From: Devosia sp. A16
Lineage (GTDB): Bacteria; Pseudomonadota; Alphaproteobacteria; Rhizobiales; Devosiaceae
Assembly: GCF_001402915.1 (NCBI RefSeq)
Contig: NZ_CP012945.1
Span: forward strand, 2,147,501 to 2,211,500
Reading direction: 5' to 3'
Length of the DNA stretch: 64,000 nucleotides
Positions 6,062 through 52,600 of this stretch are shown piece after piece. Within the stretch, counting starts at the first letter, position 1. Each line of letters starts with the position of its first letter. The notes under the pieces were generated by a model. That model worked only from the letters and a program-made list of their open reading frames with translations. It ran no database searches and was not told the origin of the DNA. Position numbers and translations under genes: made by a program.

Positions 6062-6180
6062 GTCCCCTCTCCCTCCGGGGGAAAGGGTTAGGGTGAGGGG
6101 GCCTTGCCGCAAACTCCGAACGTGGAGAAGGCCCCCTCACCCGGCCCTCCGGGCCGACCTCTCCCCCAAGGGAGAGGTGT
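6062..6180. repeat. intergenic palindromic element, copy 2 (paired arms)
   Basis: Two inverted copies of the family core face each other: CCCCTCTCCCTCC...GGGTGAGGGGGCC and GGCCCCCTCACCC...CCTCTCCCCC. The right arm is nearly the same as the left arm of the element found inside the sugar permease gene at 47205-47335. It lies between two minus-strand genes. Confidence 0.8.
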
Positions 6181-11360: not shown

Positions 11361-11443
11361 GTCATCCCCGCGAAAGCGGGCACCTCCGTTTGCGATCGTG
11401 CGAGGGCCAAGAGAACAGAGGTTCCCGCTTTCGCGGGAATGAC
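11361..11443. repeat. intergenic inverted repeat, second family (CCCGCGAAAGCGGG)
   Basis: CCCGCGAAAGCGGG at 11367-11380 and CCCGCTTTCGCGGG at 11424-11437 are exact reverse complements, bounded by GTCAT and ATGAC. The whole 83-bp unit is an inverted repeat of a type common between genes in alphaproteobacteria. It is distinct in sequence from the CCCTCTCCCC family. A diverged GTCAT-type unit appears at 12272. Confidence 0.8.
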
Positions 11444-43913: not shown

Positions 43914-44074
43914 CCCGCCCTATTCCCGGACCGCCGGCCACATTGCGGGCGCCTCAGCGCCCGCTTGTGCCGCGGCCCTCGATATAGAGCATTTCTTGCC
44001 GCTGTCAGGAATCCCTTTTGCCGCGTCCGCCCGCGCCGCAAAAGTTATGCACTGGCTGTCCGCCCGGTCTGTCC

Positions 44075-44758
44075 TTACGGCACCAACCGGTAGCCGCCGT
44101 CTTCGGTGACGAGGAGCCGTGCGTTGGATGGGTCCCGCTCGATCTTCTGGCGCAGCCGGTAGATGTGGGTTTCGAGCGTGTGCGTGGTCACCCTGTTGTT
44201 GTAGCCCCAAACTTCCTTGAGCAGGATCTCGCGGGTGATCGTCTTGGGGCCCTGGCGATAGAGATATTTGAGGATCGAGGTTTCCTTGTCGGTGAGCCGC
44301 ACCTTGGCCCCATCAGGCGCCTCGAGCAGCTTGGCCGCCGGCTGGAAGCTGTAGGGCCCGATGGTGAACACCACGTCCTCGCTCTGGTCATGCTGGCGCA
44401 GCGACGCACGGATGCGCGCCAGCAGTACCGAGAAGCGGAACGGTTTGGTGACATAGTCGTTAGCTCCGGACTCGAGACCAAGAATCTCGTCGGAATCGCT
44501 GTCCTGTGCAGTCAACATGATGATCGGGCTCTTGAACCCTTCGCGCCGCAGAATCTTCACCGCCTCGCGCCCGTCCATGTCTGGCAGGCCGACATCGAGC
44601 AACATCAGGTCGACATGCGCCCCGCGGACCTTGCCCAGCGCATCGGACGCCGACTCGGCCTCCACCAGATCGAACTCGCGATAATGCGTCAGCTGATCGA
44701 TCAAGGTCTTCCGCAGGTCGGCATCGTCGTCGACAATCAGGATGCGCCGTCTGTTCAT
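44075..44758 (-). CDS. OmpR/PhoB-type two-component response regulator
   Basis: 227 residues from ATG at 44758 (GGGG-rich ribosome site upstream). The receiver domain has Asp10-12, phospho-Asp55 (LMLLDVGLPDMDG), Thr83 and Lys105 (VTKPF). The C-terminal winged helix has LTDKETSILKYLYRQGPKTITREILLKEVWGYN (cited as LTDKETSILKYLYRQ) and THTLETHIYRLRQKIE. No histidine kinase gene is adjacent, so the partner is unknown. In rhizobia similar regulators lie near ftsK-lolA-xthA. Confidence 0.93.
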   Translation of the reverse strand: MNRRRILIVDDDADLRKTLIDQLTHYREFDLVEAESASDALGKVRGAHVDLMLLDVGLPDMDGREAVKILRREGFKSPIIMLTAQDSDSDEILGLESGANDYVTKPFRFSVLLARIRASLRQHDQSEDVVFTIGPYSFQPAAKLLEAPDGAKVRLTDKETSILKYLYRQGPKTITREILLKEVWGYNNRVTTHTLETHIYRLRQKIERDPSNARLLVTEDGGYRLVP

Positions 44759-45023
44759 GTTTTTACCCCAAGCCAATGGCTTCAATTCGTGAGTTATTGC
44801 CGGGCCTGGTGACCCGCCAATCAAAACGACGTGAGACCGCCGTGAGACAAGAAACGTGATTTGACACCGTTTGGTTTCATCTCTTCGCCACTCTTATCGG
44901 CGCGATCCTGACGGGAAGCTGACAATTTGCTGACAGTCGTGGCGGCAACTTGGCGATCCCACGCAGGGACCGGCTCACCATCATCGACGTTGACAGCCAT
45001 CTCACACCCGCCTATCAATGCGT

Positions 45024-45041
45024 TGGTTTAACGTAAAACCA
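45024..45041. promoter_or_regulatory. LacI-family operator 1
   Basis: TGGTTTAACGTAAAACCA, an imperfect palindrome centred on ACGT with TGGTTT/AAACCA arms, typical of LacI-family operators. It shares 16 of 18 bases with operator 2, located 76 bp downstream. Confidence 0.8.
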
Positions 45042-45099
45042 TCGCTCCCTCGCCGAACGATGGCACCCCAAGAATCGTCGCGTGGCACCATGAGCGCCC

Positions 45100-45117
45100 A
45101 GGTTTAACGCAAAACCA
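45100..45117. promoter_or_regulatory. LacI-family operator 2
   Basis: AGGTTTAACGCAAAACCA lies 15 bases upstream of the lacI start and just before its ribosome site. Occupancy would block transcription or translation start of lacI. The spacing to operator 1 (76 bp, about seven helical turns) suits looping. Confidence 0.8.
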
Positions 45118-45132
45118 AGGGAGGACTGCAGG

Positions 45133-46155
45133 TTGGCACGGGCCACGATCAAGGACATTGCGCTGGCCGCAAACGTCTCGCCGATGACGGTTTCCAACGT
45201 CATCAACGGCCGCCGCGCCAAGGCGTCGGACGAGACCGTCGAACGCATCATGGCGGCGGTGAAAGCGCTCGGTTACCGCCCCAACATGAGCGCCCGCAGC
45301 TTGGTCTCCAACGCCTCGCGCATGGTCGGGGTGATCATCCCGTTCACCGAGAACCAGAACCAGCTGCTGCTCGACAACCCGTTCTATGCCGAAATGATCT
45401 CCGGCATCGAAAGCGCGCTGCGCGCCAACGGCTACTACATGATGCTGACGGGCGTCGGAGAGGGCGGCGCCCAGCTCGACACCCTCTCACACTGGAACAT
45501 GGATGCGCTGATCGTCCTCGGCGTCTATCGCGAGGCGCTGTACGAGCGGCTGCGCGAACTCGCGCTGCCCACCCTGCTGATCGACAGCTATATCGACGAC
45601 CCCCGCTTCTACCGGCTCGGCGTCAATGACGAGGCGGCTGCATACCGCGCCACCAGGTACCTCATCGACAACGGGCATTCGGGCGTCGCGCTGGTGACCG
45701 GGGTGATCCGCACCGACGGCGTCATCGAGCGCCGGGTCGACGGCTACAAGCGGGCGCTCCGCGAAGCCGGAATCGGCTTTGATCCCGCCCGCATCCTCTC
45801 GGGCTCCGTTACCTTCGACTGGGGTGCCGAGGCCGCCGAGCGGCTGGTGGCGCTCCCGCACACCACCGCCGCCTTCTGCACCGCCGACCTGATTGCCGCC
45901 GGCCTGCTTGCCGGACTGCATCGGCTGGGACGGCGCATCCCCGAGGACTATTCGGTGATGGGCTTCGATAATCTGTCGATCTCGCGCATGGTCTATCCGG
46001 CGCTCACCACCATGGATCAGTCGATCCTCGGCAAGGGCCAGCTCGCCGGCCGGCTGATCAGCGCCATCCTCAACAAGGCCGACGCCCCGCGCGACAGTGT
46101 CGTCGACGTCGCCATCGTCGAACGTGACAGCGTCAGCCGGCGGGAAACGAGATGA
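45133..46155 (+). CDS. LacI family transcriptional regulator of the oligosaccharide locus
   Basis: 340 residues with a TTG start at 45133, backed by GGGAGG about eight bases upstream. The helix-turn-helix is ATIKDIALAANVSPMTVSNVINGR, cited as KDIALAANVSPMTVSNVING, with the hinge helix RPNMSARSLVS. The effector domain is a sugar-binding-protein fold (PALTTMDQSILGKGQLAGRL near the end). It is first in the cluster lacI-permease-permease-binding protein-GH31 and has two operators in front, so it should repress the locus until an alpha-glucoside or xyloside is present. Confidence 0.93.
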   Translation: MARATIKDIALAANVSPMTVSNVINGRRAKASDETVERIMAAVKALGYRPNMSARSLVSNASRMVGVIIPFTENQNQLLLDNPFYAEMISGIESALRANGYYMMLTGVGEGGAQLDTLSHWNMDALIVLGVYREALYERLRELALPTLLIDSYIDDPRFYRLGVNDEAAAYRATRYLIDNGHSGVALVTGVIRTDGVIERRVDGYKRALREAGIGFDPARILSGSVTFDWGAEAAERLVALPHTTAAFCTADLIAAGLLAGLHRLGRRIPEDYSVMGFDNLSISRMVYPALTTMDQSILGKGQLAGRLISAILNKADAPRDSVVDVAIVERDSVSRRETR

Positions 46156-46176
46156 GCTGCCAGATCAACTGCACTG

Positions 46177-46276
46177 CCCCCCTCCCCCTTGAGGGGAGGG
46201 GTGGGGGGTGGGGGTCCATCAGTGGACCACTGCACCACCCCCACCCTCATTCCCTCCCCTCAAGGGGGAGGGAGGC
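46177..46276. repeat. intergenic palindromic element, copy 8 (GACCCCCACCC subtype)
   Basis: CCCCCTCCCCCTTGAGGGGAGGGG (arms CCCCTC/GAGGGG), then GGTGGGGGTCC, a CATCAGTGGACCACTG spacer, CCACCCCCACCC and CCCTCCCCTCAAGGGGGAGGG. It lies between lacI and the first permease gene without ending the cluster. Confidence 0.82.
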
Positions 46277-46303
46277 GAAAGCTGATGGGCTGGGGAGCCC
46301 GTC

Positions 46304-47188
46304 ATGAGCCCCGCCGCCGATCCCTCCAAATACGTCGCTCTCGCCGTGCTGCTGCTCCCCAGCCTCGCCGGCATGGTGGTGTTCCTGATGGCGCCCGTGC
46401 TGTCTTCGCTGGTGCTCAGCTTCTCGCAGTGGGACCTGATCGGCGAAATCCACTGGGTCGGCCTCGACAACTACCTCACCGCGCTCGCCGATCCAGCCGT
46501 GCTCGGGGCACTGCGCAACACCCTCGGCTTCATCCTCGGCTACCTGCCCTCGGTGGTGCTGGTCGCGCTCGGTCTCGCTTTGCTGCTCAATCGCCGCATC
46601 CGCGGGCGCGTGGTGTTCCGCGCCATCTACTTCGTCCCGGTGGTCACCTCATGGGTCGCGGTTTCGCTGATCTGGAAATGGCTGCTCAACCCGCAATACG
46701 GGCTGATCAACTTCGCGCTCGGTGCCTTCGGCATCAAGGGCCCCGGCTGGCTGTTCGATCCGGCCTGGGCGATGACCGGCGTCATCCTCACCTCGGTATG
46801 GAAGGATATCGGCTTCGTCACGGTGATCTATCTGGCCGGCCTGCAGGACATCCCCGAGCCGCTTTACGAAGCCGCCGCCCTCGACGGCGCCACGGCATGG
46901 CAGCGCTTCTGGTCGATCACCTTCCCGATGCTGGCGCCGACCACCTTCTTCGTCACCACCATCTCGCTGATCTCGTCGTTCCAGGTGTTCGACCAGGTCT
47001 GGATCATGACCCAGGGCGGCCCCGCCGGCGCCACCTCGGTGATGGTGGAGCTGATCTACAAGAACGCCTTCAGCTACTACAAGATGGGCTACGCCTCGGC
47101 GATTTCCTGGGTGCTGTTCGCCCTGATCTTCGCGGTCACCATCGCGCAGAACCTGTTGCAGAAGAAGCTGGATCGGTCCGATGGCTGA
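46304..47188 (+). CDS. sugar ABC transporter permease (MalF/UgpA type)
   Basis: 294 residues with six hydrophobic helices. The conserved cytoplasmic EAA loop is EPLYEAAALDGATAWQRFWSITFPML, cited as EAAALDGATAWQRFWSI, which docks the ATPase. It forms the inner-membrane channel with the next permease. The ATPase (MsmK/UgpC type) is not coded in the window and is probably shared, as is common for this family. The 3' end overlaps the next gene by eight bases. Confidence 0.93.
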   Translation: MSPAADPSKYVALAVLLLPSLAGMVVFLMAPVLSSLVLSFSQWDLIGEIHWVGLDNYLTALADPAVLGALRNTLGFILGYLPSVVLVALGLALLLNRRIRGRVVFRAIYFVPVVTSWVAVSLIWKWLLNPQYGLINFALGAFGIKGPGWLFDPAWAMTGVILTSVWKDIGFVTVIYLAGLQDIPEPLYEAAALDGATAWQRFWSITFPMLAPTTFFVTTISLISSFQVFDQVWIMTQGGPAGATSVMVELIYKNAFSYYKMGYASAISWVLFALIFAVTIAQNLLQKKLDRSDG

Positions 47189-48167
47189 TCTTCACCTCAG
47201 CAGCAAGGCCCCCTCACCCGGTCCTTCGGACCGACCTCTCCCCCCAGGGAGAGGTGAGCGGGGGCACGATCTTGCCACATCGGCACCTCTCCCTGGGGGG
47301 AGAGGTCGGCGCACAGCGCCGGGTGAGGGGGCCTTCCCGGTATCGCAGCGAAAACTCCGCCTCGCCGACCTCGCCACCTATGCCATCCTCCTCGTCGGGG
47401 CGGGTATCATGCTGCTGCCCTTCGCCTGGATGCTCTCGACGTCGCTGAAGACCGCCGGCGCCACCTTCGTCACCCCGCCGAACTGGCTGCCCGACCCGGC
47501 GACGCTCGATAACTACGCCAAGGTGTTCGACAGCGCCCCGGTCGGCCGATTCCTGTTCAACTCGATTGTCGTTTCGGTCACCTCGACCGCCCTGATGGTG
47601 CTGTTCTGCGCCATGAGCGGCTACGCCTTCGCGCGCATTCCGTTCCGCGGCCGCACCGTGCTGTTCTACGCCTATCTGGCGACGCTGATGATCCCGCAGC
47701 AGGTGACCCTCACCCCGCTCTTCATCATCATGAACTGGCTGGGCTGGACCAATTCCTACCAGGCGCTGATCCTGCCCTCGAGCTTCGGCGCCTTCGGCAC
47801 CTTCCTGCTCCGGCAGTTCTTCCTCAGGCTCCCCAGGGAGATCGAGGAAGCCGCCTTCATCGATGGCGCCGGCTACGTGAGGATCTTTTTCACCATCGCC
47901 ATCCACCTGGCGCGCCCGGCGCTCGCCACCCTCGCGGTGTTCGCCTTCATGGCCAGCTGGAACAGCTTCTTGTGGCCGCTGATCATCACCACCGACGCCT
48001 CGATGATGACCCTGCCGCTGGGGCTGAGCGCCCTGCAGGGGCGCTGGACCACCGACTGGAACGTGCTGATGGCCGGCGCGGTGATCGCCACGCTGCCGAT
48101 CATCGCCGTCTACGTCTTCGCCCAACGCTTCATCATCAAGGGCCTGTCCCATACCGGGCTCAAGTAA
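47181..48167 (+). CDS. sugar ABC transporter permease (MalG type) with repeat-derived N-terminus
   Basis: 328 residues, about 45 more than usual. The extra N-terminal stretch (residues about 9-52, Pro/Gly/Arg-rich) is the translation of a palindromic repeat element. The MalG-like part begins at about residue 58 with LATYAILLVGAGIMLLPFAWML and has six helices and the EAA loop EIEEAAFIDGAGYVRIFF. No ATG, GTG or TTG lies in frame between the repeat and the first membrane helix, so the start must be 47181, before the element. The segment would be cytoplasmic. Confidence 0.92.
   Translation: MADLHLSSKAPSPGPSDRPLPPGRGERGHDLATSAPLPGGRGRRTAPGEGAFPVSQRKLRLADLATYAILLVGAGIMLLPFAWMLSTSLKTAGATFVTPPNWLPDPATLDNYAKVFDSAPVGRFLFNSIVVSVTSTALMVLFCAMSGYAFARIPFRGRTVLFYAYLATLMIPQQVTLTPLFIIMNWLGWTNSYQALILPSSFGAFGTFLLRQFFLRLPREIEEAAFIDGAGYVRIFFTIAIHLARPALATLAVFAFMASWNSFLWPLIITTDASMMTLPLGLSALQGRWTTDWNVLMAGAVIATLPIIAVYVFAQRFIIKGLSHTGLK
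47205..47335. repeat. palindromic element, copy 9, inserted in frame in a permease gene
   Basis: AAGGCCCCCTCACCCGG (47205-47221) and its exact reverse complement (47319-47335) are 17-bp terminal inverted repeats. Inside lie CCTCTCCCCCCAGGGAGAGG and its inverted partner CCTCTCCCTGGGGGGAGAGG. The unit is 131 bp and contains no stop codon in the permease frame. Its left end closely matches copy 2 (about 6128-6178). Confidence 0.93.
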
Positions 48168-48197
48168 CGACAACGGTCTCAAGGAGGAGAACAGACC

Positions 48198-49433
48198 ATG
48201 TTGCGCAGGACTTTCACCGGGCTGCTGCTTGCCACGGCCCTCGTCACCACCCCGGCGCTCGCCGAGGACGTGACCATAAAATACATGACCTTCTCGGCCG
48301 CGCCGAACTACCTGAAGGAACTGGACGCCACCATTGCCGCCTTCGAGGCTGAACATCCCGGCATCAAGGTCACCTACGAGACCGCCGCCTGGGATGCCTA
48401 CTTCACCAAGCTGCAGACCCTCGTTGCGGCGAAGCAGGCCCCCGACGCCTTCGAGCTCAACTTCGAGAATTTCGTCACCTATGCGCAAAAGGGCGCGCTG
48501 GCCGACCTCACTCCGCTGATCGCGGCCGACGCCGGCTTCTCGACCTCGGTCTACAACCCGACGGCACTCGCCGCTTTCGCCGAGGATGGCAAGCAGTACG
48601 GCCTGGTCGAGAGCTTCTCCAACGTCGTGCTGTTCTACAACAAGGACCTGTTCGATGCGGCCGGCGTCGCCTACCCGACCGCCGACTGGACCTGGAAGGA
48701 AGAGCTCGAGGCGGCCCAGAAGCTGACCGATCCGGCCAAGGGCATATGGGGCGATTTCGCCCCGATCCAGTTCTGGGAATTCTATAAGACCATCGCCCAG
48801 AACGGCGGCTCGATCCTCTCGCCCGACAAGAAGAGCGTCACCATCGACAGCCCGCAGAATATCGAGACGCTGACCTGGATGATCGACAAGGTGAACACCT
48901 ACAAGGTCACCCCGTCGGACGTCGAAATGGCCGGTCAATCCTCGGAAGACCTGTTCAAGGCGGGCAAGATCGCCATGCTTCGCACCGGCATCTGGCTGCT
49001 CGGCGATTTCGCCCAGAATGCCAAGTTCAACTGGGACATTGCGCTCGAACCGGGCAAGACCAACAAGGCGCACCACTTCTTTGCCAATGGCGTCGCCGTG
49101 TCGGCCAACAGCGCCCACCCGGCCGAAGCCTACCAGTGGATCAAGTTCCTGACCTCGTCCAAAGCCGCGGTCGACCTGCGCATCGCCGCCGGCTGGGAAC
49201 TGCCCGCCGTCGCCGACCCGGCCGCGGTGCAGGGTTATCTCGACCAGCCGGTACCCGAGAGCCGTGAAGTGGTGTTCCAGGCGCTCGACACCGCGGTGGT
49301 GCCGCCGGTGATCGGCAACTGGAACCAGTTGACCGACGCCGTCGGCAAGGAACTCGAAGCCGCCAAGCTCGGCCAGAAGACGCCCGAACAGGCGCTGAAG
49401 GACGCCAGGACGGCGATCGAGGGGCTGCTGTAA
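48198..49433 (+). CDS. sugar ABC transporter substrate-binding protein
   Basis: 411 residues with a signal peptide of about 23 residues (ALAEDV). It belongs to the family-1 solute-binding proteins (MalE/UgpB-like): DATIAAFEAEHPGIKVTYE, LVAAKQAPDAFELNFENF and FFANGVAVSANSAHPAEAYQWIKFL, cited as GVAVSANSAHPAEAYQWI, which is the usual C-lobe signature. It captures an oligosaccharide in the periplasm for the two permeases. AAGGAGG lies about nine bases before the ATG. The GH31 enzyme downstream suggests an alpha-linked sugar. Confidence 0.93.
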   Translation: MLRRTFTGLLLATALVTTPALAEDVTIKYMTFSAAPNYLKELDATIAAFEAEHPGIKVTYETAAWDAYFTKLQTLVAAKQAPDAFELNFENFVTYAQKGALADLTPLIAADAGFSTSVYNPTALAAFAEDGKQYGLVESFSNVVLFYNKDLFDAAGVAYPTADWTWKEELEAAQKLTDPAKGIWGDFAPIQFWEFYKTIAQNGGSILSPDKKSVTIDSPQNIETLTWMIDKVNTYKVTPSDVEMAGQSSEDLFKAGKIAMLRTGIWLLGDFAQNAKFNWDIALEPGKTNKAHHFFANGVAVSANSAHPAEAYQWIKFLTSSKAAVDLRIAAGWELPAVADPAAVQGYLDQPVPESREVVFQALDTAVVPPVIGNWNQLTDAVGKELEAAKLGQKTPEQALKDARTAIEGLL

Positions 49434-49450
49434 GGGCGCTGAACGCCGGC

Positions 49451-49574
49451 AGACGGCCCCCTCCCATCCTCCCCCATGAAGGGGGAGGTGCCTGCCGGCG
49501 TGTCCGGCACGATTGTGCCATAGCCTCGACTCTTCACCTCCCCCCTTGTGGGGGAGGCCGGGAGGGGGCCGTCT
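49451..49574. repeat. intergenic palindromic element, copy 10 (15-bp terminal inverted repeats)
   Basis: AGACGGCCCCCTCCC (49451-49465) and its exact complement (49560-49574), with inner CCTCCCCCATGAAGGGGGAGG and CCTCCCCCCTTGTGGGGGAGG. It lies between the binding-protein and GH31 genes and could stabilise or attenuate the upstream mRNA. Confidence 0.88.
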
Positions 49575-49665
49575 CTATCGGTCGGCACTCGTTCCCACAC
49601 CAATTGCCTCCCAAAGGGCAAGCCCGGGAGCCTCGGAACTCTCGGCCACTTTTACGGAACCTCAG

Positions 49666-52600
49666 ATGACCGCCGATACCCGCGAACCCGCTCTCGCAAC
49701 CCGCCATCCCTGGTTCCTCGAGCTCTATGCCGAGCTGCTGCGCAATCCGGCTGCAGTCGCCCCGCAGATCGTCGCTCGCCTCGGCGCAGCAGATCCCACC
49801 GAGCCGGTCGAAGCCGCGCTTGCCCTCTACCTGGCCGCGCTCACCGGCGACCGCGCTCTGCTCGGCTCGGCCAATGCGGTGGCGCTCCGCGCGGCCGTCT
49901 GCACGCGCCTCGAACGCGAGCTCACCCCCAACCAGAACCATTTTACCGACACGTGGGTCGTGGCGCTGTGGGCCGCGGCGCTGCGCGAAGCCAACCACCT
50001 GATGCGCGACGAGAGCACGACGCGTCTGGTCGGTCGGGTGAAGAACCACGTCTATGCCAACCATGTGCGGCTGGGCGCCCTGATGTCGTCGTCCGACAGG
50101 GCGACACTGGAGTTCGACGTGCTGCTCGCCGCGGTGCCGTTCGGGTTGTTCGACTGCGAGGACCTGGTGCTGGTCGATGCGGTCCGCACGCTCACCAGCG
50201 CCGAGCGCCTCGCGAGCGCCACCCCGGCCGATCGCCAGCTGCTCGCCTGGTACTACGCCGAGCAGGGCAGCTACGCCAAAAGCCGAAAACTGCTCGCCGA
50301 CACCCCGGCGCCCATCGTCGCACAACGTCTCACAACGCTGGGTCAGCTCGAAACCCGCTTCATCCGCCACGCCCCCGAGGGCAACGGCAACCGCTACGAG
50401 CCGCTGCTCGAGGAGCGCTTTCCCAAACTCGTCACCCCTAGTGACGAGGTCATCGTCCGGGCCCAGGCGTCGCCGCTCTCGGCCGACGAACCGCTGGAGC
50501 TCGTGGTCGGCGGCGCCACCGTTGCCGGCAGCTTTCGGGGTGACTGCTGGGAGTTCACCCTCCCCCGCACTCCGGCCGGATCTGAGGTCGCGTATCGCAT
50601 CCGCTTCGTGGCTCATCCCGAAGTCGTCGTGGGCCCGTTTGCCTATGAGACGCTGCGCCGCCGCCGCTTGGGATGCGACCCGGTGCAGGTCAGCGTTGCG
50701 GACGGCCGTATCGACATCGTTCCAGGCACCGGCGACGTCATGCTGCCGCTGCAACTGGGCCCCGCCACCCTCACTGACGTCTCCTGGCTCGAGGCCGGCG
50801 ACGGCACCATCCGCGAGATTTCCGCCACCCTGACCCACCCGCCCTGCGGCTGGTACGGCTTCGGCGAGCGCTATAACGCGCTCAACCAGGCCGGCAATCG
50901 CGTCGATCAGTTCGTCTACAACCAGTACAAGGAACAGGGGTTGAGGACCTATATGCCGATGCCGGTCGGCTACACCGACGCCGGCTTCGGCCTCCATCTC
51001 GCTACCGACGCCTATTCCTGGTTCGATCTCGCCGTTTCGGGGGAAACCAGGTTCGGCGTCGAAGCCGACCACCTTGCGATCGACCTGCTGACCGGAACCG
51101 TCGCCCAGCAGGTCAGCCAGTTCATGGCGCTGACCGGCGACCCCGAACCGGTGCCCGCCTGGGCGCTCGGCCCCTGGATGTCCTCGAACAACTGGGACAG
51201 CGAAGCCGAGGTGCGAAAGCAGGTCGCCTTGACCCGCGAGCACGACATTCCCGCCACCGTGCTGGTGATCGAGGCCTGGTCCGACGAAGCCACCTTCTAC
51301 ATCTTCAACGACGCGCAATATGCCGAGAAACCCGGTGCCGAGGCCTTCACCTATGGCGACTTCGGCTTCCCCGCCTGGGGCCGCTGGCCTGACCCGAAGG
51401 GCCTCGCGGCGCATCTGCACGACAACGCCCTGCGGCTGATCCTGTGGCAGATCCCGATCATCAAGCAGTCTCCGGCGCTGAAGCACCTGCAGAAGCGCAA
51501 TGACGAAAGTCACTTCTTCGCTGAAGGGTTTGGCGTGAAACACCCCGACGGCACGCCGCTGCGGCTGCCCGAGGGCTGGTTCAAGGACAGCCTGCTGCTG
51601 GATTTCAGCAATCCTGCCGCCCGCGACTGGTGGTTTTCGAAGCGCCAGTATCTGATCGACGAGCTCCGCGTCGACGGCTTCAAGACCGATGGCGGCGAGA
51701 TGGTCTGGGGCAAGGACCTGGTTTTCGCCGATGGCCGCACCGGGCTCGAGCACCGCAATGCCTATCCGCGCGACTACATCTCGGCCTATTACCGCTTCGC
51801 CCGGCAGAATGGCGGCATCTGCTTCTCGCGCGCCGGCTACACCGGCGCCCAGACCTTTCCGGCCCATTGGGCCGGCGACGAGCGCTCCACCTGGGATGCC
51901 TTCAAGCGCTCGATCCTCGCCGGCCTCTCTGCCGGCATGTCGGGGGTGATCTTCTGGGGCTGGGACCTTGGCGGCTTCTCCGGCGAAGTGCCGAGCGCCG
52001 AACTCTATGTGCGCTCGGCCGCCATGGCCTGCTTTTGCCCAATCATGCAGTACCACGCCGAGAGCAAGGCCGAGTTCAACCAGGACCGCACGCCATGGAA
52101 CATCGCCGAGCGCTCCGGCGATCAGCGCGCCCTGACCGGTTACCGCTTCTACGCAAACCTCCGCATGTCGCTCATGCCCTACCTCCGGCGCGAGGCCGCC
52201 TGGTGCGTCGCGGAAAAACAGCCGCTGATGCGCGCCATGCTGCTCGATTTCGGGACCGATAGCCGCGCTGTGCCGCTCTGGGACCAGTACATGTTCGGCC
52301 GTGACCTGCTCGTCGCTCCGATCATCCGCGAAGGCGAGGTCGCACGGCAGGTCTACCTTCCCGAGGGGCGCTGGTGGCACCTGTTCCACAACCGCTGGTA
52401 CGAGGGCGGCGAGACCCGCCGGGTCGACGCTCCCTTCGAGCAGATCCCGGTCTTCCTCCGCGCCGGTGCCGTCCTGCCGCTCGCCTTCCACCGGCAAACC
52501 CGGCTCGGCGCCGCCATGCCTTCCGACATCGATGCGGCGGAAATCTCGGTCCTCCTCGTCGCCGGCCTCGAACCCGGCACGCGGCACTACGAGGACGATC

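Follow-up and report, generated by a model that had tools for sequence, protein, structure and literature searches.

Palindromic repeats of three families lie in frame at one overlapping permease gene junction in Devosia

In Rickettsia, knowledge of palindromic repeats that lie in frame within genes dates from 2000 (reference in PMC10969869). The Rickettsia palindromic elements (RPEs) are about 150 bp long and are described as sitting in frame in conserved genes (PMC10969869, PMC2229807), and in vivo expression is stated for proteins with an N-terminal RPE-1 (PMC3733652). REPs of the GTAG/CGTC superfamilies occur near gene 3′ ends, rarely between divergent genes and sometimes within genes; the consulted part of the survey that describes them suggests flexible linkers as sites tolerant of REPs, gives the example of two Xanthomonas species whose recB genes carry different REPs at roughly one position, and often suspects that N-terminal in-gene repeats reflect wrong start codons (PMC3733652). 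The enterobacterial MITEs ERIC and YPAL (RU-1, RU-2) are intergenic mobile repeats, some of which are fused in frame, in part N-terminally (PMC2759123, PMC2229807). Among the alphaproteobacteria, Br-REP1 and other Bradyrhizobium REPs are palindromes in 3′-UTRs or intergenic regions whose copy number differs strongly between related species; unlike the Devosia element described here, they come with no account of a coding insertion in the excerpts of that paper (PMC5082802). A Devosia genomics paper, in the part available, mentions of repeat terms only CRISPR (PMC6981132). In-frame palindromes as such, in the form of Rickettsia RPEs and intragenic REPs, are already known. A literature search over open-access papers returned no report of the Devosia permease site that we describe here.

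The site lies in a 64,000-nt stretch of the genome of the soil bacterium Devosia sp. A16 (contig NZ_CP012945.1, positions 2,147,501 to 2,211,500), hereafter the window; coordinates refer to it and to its + strand unless stated otherwise. An operon, intact in the window, runs from a LacI regulator through permease 1, permease 2 and a solute-binding protein to a GH31 hydrolase. Permease 1 (46304–47188) is the upstream sugar ABC permease of the open reading frame list (Pfam BPD_transp_1, E=1.1e-18). Permease 2 (47181–48167; BPD_transp_1, E=2.3e-16) is of MalG/SugB type; its best structural match by Foldseek is 8ja7_B of LpqY-SugABC, with MalG chains also among the matches. The ATG at 47181 opens a 328-aa frame to 48167, in which codons 9–52 are a palindromic element (47205–47335). 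An AlphaFold2 model places a first helix at residues 61–88 (47361–47444), which we take as TM1. The TGA stop of permease 1 (47186–47188) lies inside the start of permease 2, in the sequence ATGGCTGA. This overlap was absent from the sequence-only reading from which the analysis set out, and it changes the interpretation. Like RPEs, as these are described in the sources cited, the palindrome lies in frame in a conserved gene.

The element, which belongs to what we call family A, measures 131 nt and begins 24 nt into permease 2. Its perfect 17-bp terminal inverted repeats, AAGGCCCCCTCACCCGG (47205–47221) and CCGGGTGAGGGGGCCTT (47319–47335), extend into arms of 52 nt with 88% complementarity, and its frame is open throughout, as sequence and open reading frame list both bear out for the initial description. 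RNA folding of 47170–47360 gave −131.2 kcal/mol (z −8.8), a stability reached by none of 200 dinucleotide shuffles. By DNA search, family A occupies at least 40 places in the 5.03-Mb genome (40 of 92 first-look candidates scored), to which a half-element pattern adds 8. In the window, one other copy was found, an intergenic partial copy with a 52-nt match at 6128–6179. The initial statement that all other copies in the window are intergenic or touch a stop codon thus holds for family A, but it concerns this single copy. Two further families are represented in the window: family B by a copy 3′ of the solute-binding protein gene (49451–49574), and family C by a copy between convergent genes (11361–11443), both identified by sequence match. 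The operon itself has three palindrome types at three of its junctions, at 46176–46276 before permease 1, at 47205–47335 within permease 2 and at 49451–49574 between the binding-protein and GH31 genes.

Family A, at 131 nt with 17-bp terminal inverted repeats and 40 places, is short, multicopy and bounded by inverted repeats, as MITEs are. No target site duplication was evident by eye at 47205/47335 or at the ends of other copies. Matches of the three families are about 90–160 nt long, with boundaries that are match edges and may differ from the true element ends; they are larger than REPs. Copies of A mostly end in AAGGCC, with no GTAG/CGTC tag of REPs seen, those of B in GACGG/CCGTC and some of C in CGTCAT (ends only). 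A search for the RAYT-type transposase domain Y1_Tnp (PF01797) gave no match in the window's genome and was positive in 5 of 14 control genomes; we rejected a RAYT-driven REP since the genome lacks this domain. We also rejected an Rfam identity: 45 matches up to E 1 in 44000–52000 all fell under their gathering scores and were mostly to microRNA families, with Whalefall-1 matching the element itself at 22.5 of 37 bits; they were taken as chance matches to a hairpin. By sequence and placement, the element is best read as a non-autonomous palindromic repeat of a family found mostly directly 3′ of stop codons.

We examined where copies fall at 108 places in the window's own genome, comprising 48 of family A (40 from the DNA search and 8 from the pattern, some partial) and 30 of the 40 scored places each of B and C. 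These are a subset of 92, 151 and 121 first-look candidates for A, B and C. A stop codon lay within 30 nt at 38 of 48 A places (median 15 nt) and 28 of 30 B places (median 11 nt). Family C sits further from stops, with 4 of 30 within 30 nt and a median of 51 nt. Divergent genes flanked only 2 of the 108 places but 7 of the 26 intergenic gaps of at least 100 nt in the window (Fisher p=1.4e-4), a control set in which some gaps contain elements themselves. A and B thus share both features of REP/RAYT placement, location 3′ of genes and rarity between divergent genes, and C shares the second. As described for REPs in the survey cited, Devosia elements also lie within genes at times. Six A or B copies overlap the last codons of a gene (gaps −2 to −59). 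Genes were called by a codon-usage script that mis-starts permease 2 at 47409; owing to the risk that similar cases are hidden, open frames with upstream starts were re-checked at the examined places. Of the 108, the permease copy alone combines a well-supported gene, a frame that stays open across the element from a start upstream, and no usable ordinary start downstream of the element. The family A place at 2906460 is spanned by a weakly scored open reading frame (27) and was not counted as coding. Frequent in-frame location within genes, as in RPEs, was therefore not seen here: 1 of 108 places counted as coding, and A and B lie mostly 3′ of stops.

Landing after stops might be expected to bring elements into neighbouring genes more often than this. 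Of 61 gene 3′ ends in the window, 17 have a called neighbour at the stop+16 position, so that blind placement after stops would put about 23 of 78 A and B copies in a neighbour's start; by hand we counted 1, permease 2. As a rough control, based on the 64-kb window and our own gene calls, this suggests that most insertions into neighbour starts are removed, or are avoided through the target choice of the element, and that the permease junction tolerates them.

To see how the junction fares in relatives, permease 2 orthologues were sought in 19 genomes of the genus, among them that of the window, and 11 have one (E up to 1e-85). A palindrome is present at the junction in 6 of these 11: family A in the window and genome G001, family B in G011, G014 and G015, and family C in G012 (Devosia sp. 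Root413D1). Each of the six keeps the permease 2 frame open. By the boundaries that we set, the element starts 16 nt past the permease 1 stop in the window and 18 nt past it in G001 (both A), at 20 nt for B and at about 36 nt for C. In the remaining 5 of 11, no element is present and 13–30 residues precede the common core. The segment was likewise not seen in the N-terminus of any of five more distant orthologues (L068, from Devosia subaequoris, and L071–L074; 5 of 80 loci).

Three families at one junction imply at least three acquisitions. A tree of permease 1 and the permease 2 core reads ((((window, G011)95, G012)65, G014)100, (G001, G015)100)86, with G007 and G013, both without the element, next outward. 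Parsimony read by hand onto this gene tree would give four steps, B in the ancestor and then A, A and C, but the number remains uncertain because two nodes are weak (65, 86). The three B permease copies look like one inherited insertion: among 45 genomic copies checked in six genomes, the two nearest to each are the other two, at 86–90%. The ancestor of the six species would then probably have carried a family B element that was later replaced by A and by C. The window A copy is 90.2% like that of G001 and 90.8% like a genomic paralogue. Shared descent of the two A copies, with exchange at the locus, is possible and would leave three acquisitions; it is favoured because none of the 9 copies checked in the G001 genome exceeds 86% likeness to the G001 permease copy. 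The 16 nt between the permease 1 stop and the A element (window 47189–47204) contain a 10-mer, TCTTCACCTC, in common with family B. A match this good was equalled by 0.4–0.65% of 2000 random window stretches, and two other flanks tested gave nothing; the 10-mer is perhaps, and weakly, a remnant of an earlier B element. Family loads vary across the genus as well. Protein-frame matches on both strands number at least 149 (window's genome), at least 140 (G003), 1 (G001) and 0 (G007) for family B, and at least 46 (window's genome), at least 24 (G001) and 0 (G014) for family A, so sister species seem to carry sharply different A and B loads.

We consider it quite probable that a 3′-of-stop element became coding through gene overlap and is read through as a tolerated N-terminal spacer of permease 2. 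The usual landing place, about 16 nt past a stop, would here be within the N-terminus of permease 2, a short cytoplasmic stretch; this place is coding because the permease 1 stop lies within the permease 2 start. After finishing permease 1, ribosomes would initiate permease 2 at the ATG in the overlap and translate across the hairpin, yielding a permease 2 with about 44 extra disordered residues. Only frame-keeping insertions would survive at this position, the segment being otherwise near neutral. Against stop proximity as the cause stands family C, whose copies usually lie further from stops.

The palindrome might instead matter as RNA. REPs between mal genes are said to act as RNA hairpins, and a hairpin between the two permease genes could change mRNA stability or the permease ratio, with translation incidental, a possibility that we hold as tentative and somewhat unlikely. 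Its fold is very stable, it sits, as its relatives do, at the 3′ end of a gene, and the amino acids are not consistently conserved, yet hairpins of three families occur at the site. However, six in-frame inserts go unexplained unless the hairpin is also translated, and its absence from 5 of 11 orthologues argues that it is dispensable. This role is compatible with a translated spacer; a stable hairpin 24 nt into the gene could also hamper translation or otherwise affect expression. Further along the same line, the junction may be a standing docking site at which a lost palindrome is replaced by one of another family, always in frame, because a translated hairpin is selectably beneficial. We regard this as unlikely. 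If true, the benefit might be setting the permease ratio or protecting permease 1 mRNA, and the amino acids would be free, with only frame and fold kept.

Whether the hairpin is part of the protein depends on where permease 2 starts. It could be started at an unusual codon inside or after the element, or by a re-initiating ribosome, leaving the element an untranslated spacer, in keeping with the suspicion in the REP survey that most N-terminal copies are extragenic (PMC3733652, in the part consulted). Two genomes would allow this: after the element, G011 has an ATG at codon 55 and G012 has GTG at codons 48 and 56. The other four leave little room for it. The initial observation that the window has no ATG, GTG or TTG between element and first helix held when seven codon types were scanned, for none of ATG, GTG, TTG, CTG, ATT, ATC and ATA occurs in frame between codon 1 and TM1, and the first start-like codon is an ATC at codon 69, inside TM1. 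G001 also lacks ATG, GTG and TTG after the element and has only CTG59 before TM1. G014 has no start of the seven kinds after it, with GTG23 inside the element, and G015 has only ATC53 and CTG61 after it, with ATG19 and GTG23 inside. Under ordinary start rules, four of the six would thus be forced to translate all or most of the element, which is not so for G011 and G012.

The reading frame points the same way, phase being kept in 6 of 6. Among genomic copies, stop-free frames numbered 91 of 186 for 31 A copies, 94 of 180 for 30 B copies and 107 of 180 for 30 C copies, and match lengths spread over all three classes modulo 3, from which we estimate that a random insert would be open and in phase about one time in six. 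Six of six fits selection that keeps the permease intact, and chance appears unlikely. Against this, a second frame over the segment is also stop-free in the window and in G014. Taken together, the hairpin is probably read as part of the permease 2 protein, and an untranslated spacer is very unlikely.

As to what the segment is, dN/dS was compared among the three B carriers (three pairs), in which the B segment is equal in length; counts are small. The permease core gave 0.08–0.14 and by this measure is under strong constraint, and the B segment gave 0.30, 1.09 and 1.57 by pair. Because a shifted frame lay below the true frame in 2 of 3 pairs, the amino acids give no evidence of translation. 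In the AlphaFold2 model, blocks of residues over 1–50 have mean pLDDT values below 50, and residues 1–60, for the most part of low confidence, have no secondary structure before the confident helix 61–88. On this model, we read the added segment as a tolerated disordered translated spacer, not a new functional domain.

The sequence-only reading had proposed a start codon recruited once the element was in place. The comparison with relatives contradicts this. The permease 2 start ATGGCT overlaps the permease 1 stop in 11 of 11 congeneric orthologues, as ATGGCTGA in 9 and ATGGCTAG in 2, and five of these orthologues carry no element, so on the alignments the element entered a coding start, the existing N-terminus of permease 2, that was already there. 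We found no support for a start that arose or was recruited later, which we consider highly improbable. Still less credible is the view of permease 2 in the window as a pseudogene or the product of an assembly error, as nothing beyond the odd N-terminus speaks for it, the same arrangement recurs in six genomes from separate records, the core dN/dS is low among the three B carriers and the operon is intact.

A search for other in-frame copies, also proposed at the outset, was made among relatives, at 50 of 58 loci (8 of odd length were skipped) and then at 36 (6 of them repeats), picked on match score or on a long open frame. It yielded one clear further in-frame case, in genome G018. At this locus (L270; G018:C14:44434-44562), the minus-strand gene for a pyruvate-dehydrogenase E1-beta-type protein contains a family A copy in frame, in the linker between the Biotin_lipoyl (4–74) and Transket_pyr (159–334) domains; this copy matches the window copy at 93 of 132 aligned positions. 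Since both flanks belong to one gene, a misassigned start codon is no explanation here. By protein alignment, ten other orthologues of this protein were found without the segment, the comparison covering the 11 of 19 genomes that passed E 1e-50.

Several other loci resemble the permease arrangement in part. At L289, downstream of a LemA gene, a DUF2207 membrane-protein gene includes a family B copy in frame at its N-terminal end, and the real start may be a GTG within this element. At L332 (G003:C69), a family B frame is open into the downstream gene from a start 40 nt before the element. Two places in the window's own genome were not counted. L158 (G000:C1:2233182-2233313) is an A copy directly before a hisA-type gene (Pfam His_biosynth) whose frame continues without a stop from an upstream start across the element; a start follows the element and carries what we take to be the usual hisA opening residues. 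L014 (2058747) is open from an upstream start, with ordinary starts inside and after it. The suggestion that this family can create protein segments thus stands for the permease copy and for L270, as a rare outcome at 1 of 108 own-genome places, but it is not special to family A, as families B and C did likewise at the same site.

What sets the permease junction apart is its repeated use. One gene junction, that of an overlapping gene pair, is used by three families, which differs from RPEs, set against these elements by description only, and REPs are further distinguished by the RAYT-type gene that we did not find in this Devosia genome. ERIC and YPAL belong to other hosts and are likened here by description only; the parts of those sources consulted showed no site captured by more than one family. 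In-frame occupation of one gene junction by three families, with an overlapping stop as its cause, was not found in the literature compared. The cause proposed is simple and testable: families that land 3′ of stops would become coding where genes overlap. The site comes with natural controls, in five species without the element and six with elements of three families, and with an ancestral start fixed by the overlap. The junction would serve as a natural experiment, and a repeatable one, on the gain of disordered segments by bacterial proteins.
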